DNA of 36,652 bases, taken from Bacillota bacterium (GTDB lineage Bacteria; Bacillota; Clostridia; Peptostreptococcales; Anaerovoracaceae). Position 1 is the stretch's first letter; each line of letters starts with the position of its first letter. Where the stretch lies: the NCBI GenBank assembly GCA_017556505.1, contig JAFYNS010000143.1:1-36652 (forward strand). The letters run 5' to 3'. Shown here one piece after another: positions 17,009-19,349 of the stretch. Made by a program: the position numbers and the translations under genes. The notes under the pieces are model-generated. The model had not been told where the DNA came from and did not search any database. It saw only the letters and a program-made list of their open reading frames with translations.

Positions 17009-17542
17009 TTAGTATGTAGTTTCCACTACACCGTAATTTCCGTCGTTTCTCTTGTAAACCACGCTTACGCTGTCGGTTTCCTGATCAAGATATACGAAGA
17101 AATTATGCTGCAGAAGTTCCATCTGCATTACTGCTTCGTCAACACTCATAGGCTGTAACTGGAACTTCTTGGACTTAACGATCTTAGCTTCTTCAGCCTG
17201 TTCTTCTTCCGGAATTTCCGGAATCATTTCGAATCTTACAGATTCACCAGACTTATTTCTCTTCTGCAGTTTACCTTTATATTTGGTCATCTGGCTGGAT
17301 AACTTGTCCGCTACGATGTCAATACTGTCAAAAACATCCTGTGATACATCTTCAGCTCTGAAAATAGTCCCCTTGGTTACGATGGTAGCTTCCATCTTTA
17401 CCTTGTCTCTTTCAGGATGAATCACTATATTTGCCTGTATATCGTCAGCAAAAAACTTTCCGAGCTTTTCGAATCTCTTGTCAATAGCATCCTGGATTTT
17501 TTCACTAATAGTAATGTTCTTTCCTGTAACGATAATCTTCAT
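17009..17542 (-). CDS. hpf: Ribosome hibernation promoting factor, long form
   Basis: Binds 30S subunits and pairs them into inactive 100S dimers during slow growth. The N-terminal S30AE domain begins MKIIVTGKNITISEKIQDAID; a linker leads to the C-terminal dimerisation domain (KSKKFQLQPMSVDEAVMQM, FFVYLDQETDSVSVVYKRNDG), so this is the long form. I start it at ATG 17542, preceded by a strong AAGGAGG; the frame is open further upstream but without support. The 177 residues are typical. It lies directly downstream of the raiA-type RNA and has its own promoter and terminator. Confidence 0.96.
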   Translation of the reverse strand: MKIIVTGKNITISEKIQDAIDKRFEKLGKFFADDIQANIVIHPERDKVKMEATIVTKGTIFRAEDVSQDVFDSIDIVADKLSSQMTKYKGKLQKRNKSGESVRFEMIPEIPEEEQAEEAKIVKSKKFQLQPMSVDEAVMQMELLQHNFFVYLDQETDSVSVVYKRNDGNYGVVETTY

Positions 17543-17643: not shown

Positions 17644-17652
17644 ATTATACCA
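17644..17652 (-). promoter_or_regulatory. Extended -10 promoter of hpf
   Basis: Minus-strand TGG-TATAAT with no good -35, so an extended -10 promoter. Just upstream are inverted repeats (GTGG-TAAT-CCAC and CCACATGTGG) that could bind a regulator. The leader to the hpf start is about 95 bases. Confidence 0.55.
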
Positions 17653-17691
17653 CATGTGGGGGTGGATTACCACCTTATTTTGAATGTATCA

Positions 17692-17725
17692 CAAAAAAAA
17701 CAAAAACCGCCCGACCGGCGGTTTT
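17692..17725 (-). terminator. Terminator of the raiA-type RNA
   Basis: AAAACCGCC (17703-17711) pairs with GGCGGTTTT (17717-17725), followed on the minus strand by TTTTTGTTTTTTTT. It separates the RNA from the hpf promoter. Confidence 0.88.
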
Positions 17726-17914
17726 CTACATAAAAATAAAAAAAGAACTGCTCAGCTGACCTGGTCTTTGCCCCCACACCTGCCTTTACCCGATTTTCGG
17801 AGGACTTACTTCTAAGGTACGCCATGATCACCGCCCGACTCCAGCGTGACGGCTTACGTGGATCCTTTCGCCCGCACCTGGCTTGGATTTTCAACCACAG
17901 ACCTGAACAATTCC
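17692..17914 (-). ncRNA. raiA: raiA-motif structured RNA
   Basis: The gap between comFC and hpf holds an independent RNA gene. A consensus promoter places its start near 17914. The 5' end GAATTGTTCAG (17903-17913) pairs with CTGAGCAGTTC (17745-17755) over 11 bp including two G-U pairs, closing the whole molecule; a T-rich run follows that stem, then a second hairpin terminator. The interior, about 145 bases, is GC-rich and has no convincing reading frame. The raiA motif is a known conserved RNA of Firmicutes and Actinobacteria typically found beside raiA/hpf and comFC, exactly this context. I assign the family from position and architecture, not from a covariance-model match. Its molecular function is still not fully settled. 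Confidence 0.8.
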
Positions 17915-17919
17915 AGTCT

Positions 17920-17948
17920 ATTCTACATTATTTTTTCTCATTTTGCAA
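17920..17948 (-). promoter_or_regulatory. Promoter of the raiA-type RNA
   Basis: Minus-strand TTGCAA (17943-17948), 17-bp spacer, TAGAAT (17920-17925). It overlaps the last codons of comFC, so the RNA can be made independently of comFC. Confidence 0.78.
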
Positions 17949-18722
17949 GAAAAATCCTTCTGCAAAATCATTCCCTGTAGCCAGCACCAGAACATCTACC
18001 CGCTCAGCCCCAGCCTCCTTCAGAACACGCCCGCACTGGAGCACCGTAGCCCCGGTCGTAAAAATATCATCCAGCAGAATCACATGTTTTCCCGACATGT
18101 CTTTCGAACAGGAAAAAGCATCTGCCAGATTGGAAAGCCGGTCCCGGCCCTCCACGCTTCGCTGCGCAGCCGTGCTCTCATGCCGTATAAGACCATCATA
18201 CATCACAGGAACGGATATGTGACCCCCCAGATACCGGGCAATTTTTCCCACCTGATTAAACCCCCTCTGCCGTTCCTTTTTCCGGTGCATGGGCACAGGG
18301 ATAATACAATCTGCAGACAGAAGTTCCGCAGCGTCCGGATCGCTGAAAATCCGGTCTGCAAGGATTTTGCCGGCAATACGGGCCACATAGGTGTTCCGGT
18401 TGTACTTCAGTTCGAAGATAATCCGGCGTTCATAGAGGCCGTATTTCATGCATCCGCGGATGGAATCCAGCGGAATTCCGCCATCTGCCTGCAGTTTCTC
18501 CGCTTCCGGCCCGGTAAACTGGTTCTGTTTCAGCGACCGGGGCGGTATTTCCACATTGCCCCAGGTAATATGGCGGATGCAGTGGTCGCAGATGCAGTAG
18601 CTCCGCCGGTTATCAATAAAATTGCCGCAGCAGATGCAGTAGGTTCCCCAGGGAAAGAAAAACTCCACCGCCCACTCCGCCGCACGCTGCATCCAGCCCG
18701 GCCCCCTCAGATTCAGATACAT
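17928..18722 (-). CDS. comFC: ComF-family protein (phosphoribosyltransferase-like)
   Basis: A 264-residue ComFC homologue, associated with DNA uptake and processing in competent bacteria. The N-terminal region has a four-cysteine zinc ribbon (CICCGN, then CICDHC), and the C-terminal domain has the PRPP-binding loop VILLDDIFTTGATV. The start lies three bases after the hicB stop, so its translation is probably coupled to hicB. Normally comFC follows comFA or other DNA-processing genes; recD2 lies beyond hicAB here. It ends inside the promoter of the raiA-type RNA. Confidence 0.92.
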   Translation of the reverse strand: MYLNLRGPGWMQRAAEWAVEFFFPWGTYCICCGNFIDNRRSYCICDHCIRHITWGNVEIPPRSLKQNQFTGPEAEKLQADGGIPLDSIRGCMKYGLYERRIIFELKYNRNTYVARIAGKILADRIFSDPDAAELLSADCIIPVPMHRKKERQRGFNQVGKIARYLGGHISVPVMYDGLIRHESTAAQRSVEGRDRLSNLADAFSCSKDMSGKHVILLDDIFTTGATVLQCGRVLKEAGAERVDVLVLATGNDFAEGFFLQNEKK

Positions 18723-18725
18723 GCC

Positions 18726-19118
18726 TTACTCCAGTCCCAGTCTGGCACGCAGTGCTTCCTGCAAAATCTGTGAAAAATTAAGTTCTCTGGCAGTTGCTTC
18801 TTCATTGAGCCATTCGGGAATGGTCAAAGTCTTTTTCACCGCCCGGTTGTTATGCATTTTGCGGTATTTCAGTGTATCACAGGTGATATACGTCGCAAAC
18901 TCATTTTCCTCTGTCTTGATATCTTTCAGCCGGCTGGCCGCCGGAATACTGCGGCATTCCTTTTCATATTCATACAGCATCAGTGCCAGCGCATCTTCCG
19001 CCATTTCAATTCCATTACTCAGACTGTCTCCGCAGGTAAAGCATCCTTCTACATCCGGAAAACGAACGGCAAACATGCCGTCATCCTCAGCAAAAATTGC
19101 CGGAAATACATATTTCAT
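18726..19118 (-). CDS. hicB: HicB-family antitoxin
   Basis: The 130-residue protein has the HicB N-terminal fold (MKYVFPAIFAEDDGMFAVRFPD, with GCFTCGDS) and a C-terminal DNA-binding part with a ribbon-helix-helix look (LTIPEWLNEEATARELNFSQ). The longer two-domain form both neutralises HicA and binds its own promoter. It has AAGGAGG upstream and follows hicA by 27 bp. The toxin-first order is usual for hicAB. It ends three bases before comFC. Confidence 0.9.
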   Translation of the reverse strand: MKYVFPAIFAEDDGMFAVRFPDVEGCFTCGDSLSNGIEMAEDALALMLYEYEKECRSIPAASRLKDIKTEENEFATYITCDTLKYRKMHNNRAVKKTLTIPEWLNEEATARELNFSQILQEALRARLGLE

Positions 19119-19145
19119 AAGCAGCCTCCTTCTTTTCTTTCATAA

Positions 19146-19331
19146 TCACTTTATTCCTGCTGTTTTCAGAATCGTTTCAGCAGTCTTCGTGGGTAATTCT
19201 TTACTTCGGTGCCTTGGAACGGTAAATTTCCTCCCCGTCATGTTACTGTACCAGATATCATGGCTGGCGCCATGTTCCAGGAGAAAGCAATCATTTTTCT
19301 TGAACAGCTTTATCAATTCAGACACGTTCAT
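19146..19331 (-). CDS. hicA: HicA-family mRNA interferase toxin
   Basis: A 61-residue toxin that cleaves mRNA on ribosomes or free in the cell. The catalytic His lies in HGASHDIW, and the fold's KFTVPRHRSKELPTKTAETIL end is typical. I start it at ATG 19331, with GGGGG eight bases upstream; the preceding TTG is less likely. No frameshift or missing key residue is visible, so the pair looks functional. Confidence 0.92.
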   Translation of the reverse strand: MNVSELIKLFKKNDCFLLEHGASHDIWYSNMTGRKFTVPRHRSKELPTKTAETILKTAGIK

Positions 19332-19349
19332 CAATGTATCCCCCTTTAT

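Follow-up and report, generated by a model that had tools for sequence, protein, structure and literature searches.

raiA, named ModT in C. difficile, is an abundant structured bacterial RNA known from Clostridia, with an abundance comparable to that of housekeeping RNAs. In C. difficile ModT is transcribed from its own sigma-A promoter and two terminations give isoforms of 215 and 260 nt; in C. acetobutylicum no long isoform is made (PMC11706538). The RNA acts when supplied in trans, as trans-complementation in C. difficile and C. acetobutylicum has shown, and cross-species complementation has also been published (PMC11706538). The orthologues tested in that work appear to carry the P7/P8 region. 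Variant 1 of Haack et al. accounts for 32% of raiA RNAs (PMC11751092).

We analysed a 36,652-nt stretch of DNA (the window) and found that positions 17913-17745 of its minus strand hold what we take, at a probability of about 85%, to be a single-copy, self-standing raiA/ModT noncoding RNA gene of the short-P6 type that would be driven by its own promoter and act in trans. An earlier note on this DNA had placed a raiA-type RNA between comFC and hpf and had named a minus-strand run of the Rfam raiA covariance model as the check. Indeed, the raiA model RF03072 matches 17911-17747 (−) with 133.4 bits (E 6.8e-33, model positions 1-209, local end at P6), a whole-model score far above the curated gathering cut-off of 101.3 bits. 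This is the sole Rfam match, no other family being found elsewhere in the 36.6 kb. The 2.4 Mb draft genome contains one copy of the RNA, and raiA RNAs were found in 65 of 80 relatives' genomes. The locus adds a short-form copy of an already known RNA and is not a novel kind of RNA. Its features, in the direction of transcription, are as follows.

17928..18722, minus strand: comFC, the upstream neighbour, with a phosphoribosyltransferase domain (Pfam PF00156; named from domain and position)
17943..17948, minus strand: −35 box TTGCAA of the predicted raiA RNA promoter, within the comFC coding end (promoter scan; TTGnAA in 5/5 congeners)
17920..17925, minus strand: −10 box TAGAAT of the predicted raiA RNA promoter, 17-nt spacer (promoter scan)
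17745..17913, minus strand: raiA (ModT) noncoding RNA, variant 1, mature core ~169 nt (RF03072 match and covariation)
17903..17913, minus strand: P1 5' strand, GAATTGTTCAG (sequence; covariation)
17873..17879, minus strand: pk-1 5' side in the P3 loop, AGGTGCG, forming 7 pairs with 17821-17815
17823..17824, minus strand: pk-2, TG side, pairing with CA at 17770-17769 (placement from PMC11751092)
17815..17821, minus strand: pk-1 3' side in the pk-loop, CGTACCT (family alignment and covariation)
17783..17803, minus strand: short P6 hairpin region replacing the P6-P7-P8 domain (variant defined in PMC11751092)
17745..17755, minus strand: P1 3' strand, CTGAGCAGTTC (sequence; covariation)
17732..17744, minus strand: U-run directly 3' of P1, T7-A-T5 (sequence; at least 5 U in 5/5 congeners)
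17692..17726, minus strand: predicted hairpin terminator with T-tail (terminator scan)
17644..17654, minus strand: predicted hpf promoter, extended −10 TGTGGTATAAT (kept in 5/5 congeners)
17009..17542, minus strand: hpf, long-form ribosome hibernation factor, the downstream neighbour, outside the RNA (Pfam PF02482 and PF16321)

The comFC stop codon occupies 17930-17928, and a HicA/HicB-like toxin-antitoxin pair lies directly 5' of comFC at 18726-19334 (−). Downstream of hpf are cdaA and cdaR-like (YbbR) genes. The closest matches of the Hpf protein are from Bacillota metagenome-assembled genomes of ruminant gut and related samples, with 97% identity to one from water buffalo caecum, followed at 51-54% identity by Mobilibacterium timonense and Anaerovorax species, which makes Anaerovoracaceae the probable family.

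The window RNA shares with the RF03072 RNA (ModT in C. difficile) a full-length covariance match, helices P1-P6, pseudoknot pk-1, letters compatible with pk-2 and the invariant unpaired nucleotides, as well as the position between comFC and hpf, an own promoter and a predicted terminator after P1. It differs in having a short P6 hairpin in place of P6-P8 and in the U-run, which in the window's clade sits directly at the base of P1. The core pairs and pseudoknot positions are also those of the C. acetobutylicum raiA RNA solved by cryo-EM (9CXF and 9ELY; PMC11751092, PMC12286853), with the P3 loop beginning at A33 in either numbering; however, that RNA is a variant 2 RNA with P7/P8 and an E-loop in contact with pk-1, a domain that the window RNA lacks.

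The fold was assessed on an alignment of 39 raiA RNAs from the family, in which the pairs of the published architecture, pk-1 and pk-2 included (PMC11751092), were counted. This structure came from the published models and was not fitted to the alignment, with the exception of the exact short-P6 positions, which were read from the window sequence. Standard pairs occupy 96.5% of cells, both pseudoknots included, and changes on both sides are found at 28 of the 46 pairs. Every measure of pairing and covariation exceeds all 500 shuffles, none of which reaches the observed values, and each slid control; sliding the partners by 1-3 columns lowers pairing to 32-46%. Helices P1, P3, P4, P5 and P6 are 94.6-100% paired, the tip of the short P6 hairpin 81%, and the pairs of P1 covary within the family. 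The pk-1 pseudoknot is strongly supported by the alignment, being 97.4% paired with changes on both sides at five of its seven pairs. The letters permit the two pk-2 pairs in 98.7% of cells, yet these positions are near-invariant and give little covariation signal. The fold energy of the single sequence is unexceptional (z −0.75), which says little because the RNA is pseudoknotted, and single-sequence folding was dropped as structural support in favour of the covariation counts.

The P6 region of the window RNA spans 21 nt (GTCC TCCGAAAATCGG GTAAA), as against 60-72 nt elsewhere in the order, and fits variant 1, a short hairpin; variants 1 and 2 both count as raiA RNAs. The long form is kept in three genera of the family, and on the Hpf tree these group with the rest of the order (support 91/85), a topology that is consistent, with moderate support, with a single P6 change within the family. 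A fresh deletion in the window was rejected, because the short P6 is shared by nearly every raiA RNA in the family and the three full-length RNAs group with the rest of the order. In a limited search of the literature, no variant-1 RNA was found to have been tested for function. Being a natural copy without the P7/P8 domain, the window RNA can help to locate the minimal working core.

The promoter that had been proposed, TTGCAA-17-TAGAAT overlapping the end of comFC, was recovered by the scan at 17948..17920 (−), with its −35 box within comFC. Taken singly, this match counts for little (p about 0.06 when compared with local shuffles). TTGnAA-17-TAnAAT is found just 5' of the RNA in all five species of the genus, and a 17-nt-spaced promoter whose −10 box ends 15-18 nt ahead of the invariant GTCTG is present at 10 of the 11 clade loci examined. 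Transcription is predicted to start near 17914-17913, such that a housekeeping-type promoter within the comFC end would begin the RNA at the first base of P1.

At the other end, the closing stem is exactly as had been claimed: GAATTGTTCAG (17913-17903) pairs with CTGAGCAGTTC (17755-17745) over 11 bp, two of them G-U pairs, in a duplex of −15.3 kcal/mol (12 bp by outward helix count). The U-rich run follows at 17744-17732, and the separate terminator, a hairpin at 17726-17702 followed by GTTTTTTTT, was recovered by the terminator scan. The hairpin terminator, on which the first reading relied, is the least conserved element: it is common to the window and its nearest relative (L033) and absent from the other three congeners. 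Since the U-run follows P1 in all five congeners, the conserved stop would be P1 with its U-run, which looks like a candidate built-in terminator in this clade, and the hairpin would be a second stop, probably of recent origin. Against P1 as a terminator, it closes about 145 nt, unlike an ordinary short-loop terminator. Termination at P1 and the U-run would give a short form of about 175-185 nt, and read-through past P1 to the hairpin 20 nt downstream would give a long form of about 220 nt. Such a pair of predicted 3' ends resembles that of C. difficile ModT (PMC11706538) in having two tandem candidate ends, one at the end of the motif and one at a downstream intrinsic terminator; here, the isoforms are predicted only, and no species other than that of the window and its nearest relative has the second terminator. 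Nor need there be two isoforms in the window, as C. acetobutylicum makes no long one.

A different origin of the RNA, as a 3'-end product of the comFC mRNA freed by cutting both strands of P1, has to be weighed against the promoter-driven reading. P1 continues past the limits of the Rfam model, the median being 13 extra pairs in the family and 2.5 elsewhere in the order, with 1.9 expected for shuffled flanks. At least 9 extra pairs are found at 30 of 41 family loci and 2 of 22 loci in the rest of the order. The counting admits G-U pairs and single mismatches, and it overstates the extension where a run of A faces a run of U. P1 reaches 20-30 bp in most other genera of the family, with extension sequences that differ from genus to genus, and no adjacent promoter was found at most of the family's long-P1 loci. 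The comFC stop codon lies at most 30 nt upstream of the RNA or inside it at 20 of the 34 family loci where it could be placed. At four loci (L039, L043, L058 and L064) the comFC reading frame enters the raiA RNA, and its stop codon falls within conserved RNA sequence. The long-P1 loci are most naturally read as ones where a double-strand-specific nuclease would cut the RNA out of the comFC mRNA; alternatively, promoters may lie further inside comFC. For the window RNA itself such an origin is very unlikely, as its clade has a short P1 and a conserved, correctly placed promoter.

Also very unlikely is that the RNA is a 5' leader of hpf, with transcripts from the raiA promoter reading through the terminators and the RNA controlling hpf in cis. 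Rfam labels RF03072 'Cis-reg; riboswitch', and most relatives have hpf downstream on the same strand as the RNA. However, a hairpin terminator and a conserved hpf promoter lie between the RNA and hpf in the window, so the RNA was not found to sit within the hpf mRNA with an expression platform, although some transcripts may read through into hpf. The separate hpf promoter had been claimed before; its extended −10 element TGTGGTATAAT is at 17654-17644, and all five congeners have an extended −10 promoter 82-111 nt ahead of the hpf start codon (score 11-12; p 0.005-0.02 from mononucleotide shuffles). Moreover, the RNA and hpf are between 27 and about 690 nt apart across the family, and the published deletions were rescued in trans (PMC11706538). 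The view of the earlier note that this is a discrete small RNA and not a cis leader of hpf holds up, given an own promoter, a U-run and a separate hpf promoter in all five species, and that the raiA RNA is discrete in the window's genus is well supported by these sequence elements.

Beyond the genus, two related genera (L044 and L073) differ in that the RNA ends at P1 about 25-30 nt ahead of the hpf start codon and directly abuts the hpf ribosome site. This leaves no space for a second promoter, and judging by this layout hpf must there be transcribed from the raiA promoter. 'Never a leader' would therefore overstate the case for the clade. At L044 P1 is followed by a T6 run, and hpf may depend there on read-through of this candidate P1 terminator. 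At another locus (L029) hpf lies downstream but on the other strand, and several relatives showed no hpf in the roughly 2.3 kb that follow the RNA; thus the RNA needs no hpf in cis, and its location beside hpf is a habit, not a requirement.

The hpf 5' leader has a structure of its own at 17627-17561 (−), where all five congeners keep a stem, formed by GUUUGCACAGAC ... GUCUGUCGUGCAGGC, just ahead of the AGGAGG ribosome site, its apical part differing among them in length and sequence. A shorter hairpin occupies the same position in a related genus (L070). This stem had no Rfam match, and it may serve to regulate or stabilise hpf.

Turning to function, the window genome has adjacent spo0A and spoIVB genes (G000:C189) and three GGDEF matches, which leaves room for the published outputs in sporulation and c-di-GMP. 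Among the genomes of at least 90% completeness in the set of 80 relatives, the raiA RNA showed no association with spo0A (present in 28 of 47 raiA-positive and 7 of 12 raiA-negative genomes; Fisher p = 1). With GGDEF there was only a weak negative tendency (p 0.05-0.09). Eight genomes of at least 90% completeness (G009, G015, G041, G044, G046, G050, G061 and G072) keep the raiA RNA without spo0A or any GGDEF match, three of them species of one genus at 100% completeness; the absences are those of draft genomes searched with one profile each. The presence of raiA RNA was also associated with that of hpf (p 6e-5 over the whole set, 0.03 over genomes of at least 95% completeness). This was set aside as a biological signal and read as largely an assembly effect, because hpf is usually the adjacent gene and is missing as well from 7 of the 15 raiA-negative genomes.

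In the mechanism that we propose by analogy, the RNA folds into the compact pseudoknotted raiA core and, as a stable and abundant structured RNA, would act in trans to help time the shift from exponential to stationary phase, with hpf expressed from its own promoter. A protein- or ligand-binding scaffold is the likeliest mode of action, because the whole RNA and not a short seed is conserved. For the family, we tentatively suggest two production routes, an own promoter with a P1 terminator in the window's clade and excision from the comFC mRNA via a 20-30 bp P1 in most other genera, together with a basic job that would need neither Spo0A nor c-di-GMP synthesis, since near-complete genomes without either keep the raiA RNA. 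The long-P1 copies fused to comFC pose a testable question of how the RNA is produced. That some genomes keep the raiA RNA but have neither spo0A nor GGDEF genes is an argument for seeing the published effects on sporulation and c-di-GMP as downstream outputs in some lineages and not as the core function, which we take to be a more general role in the growth transition.
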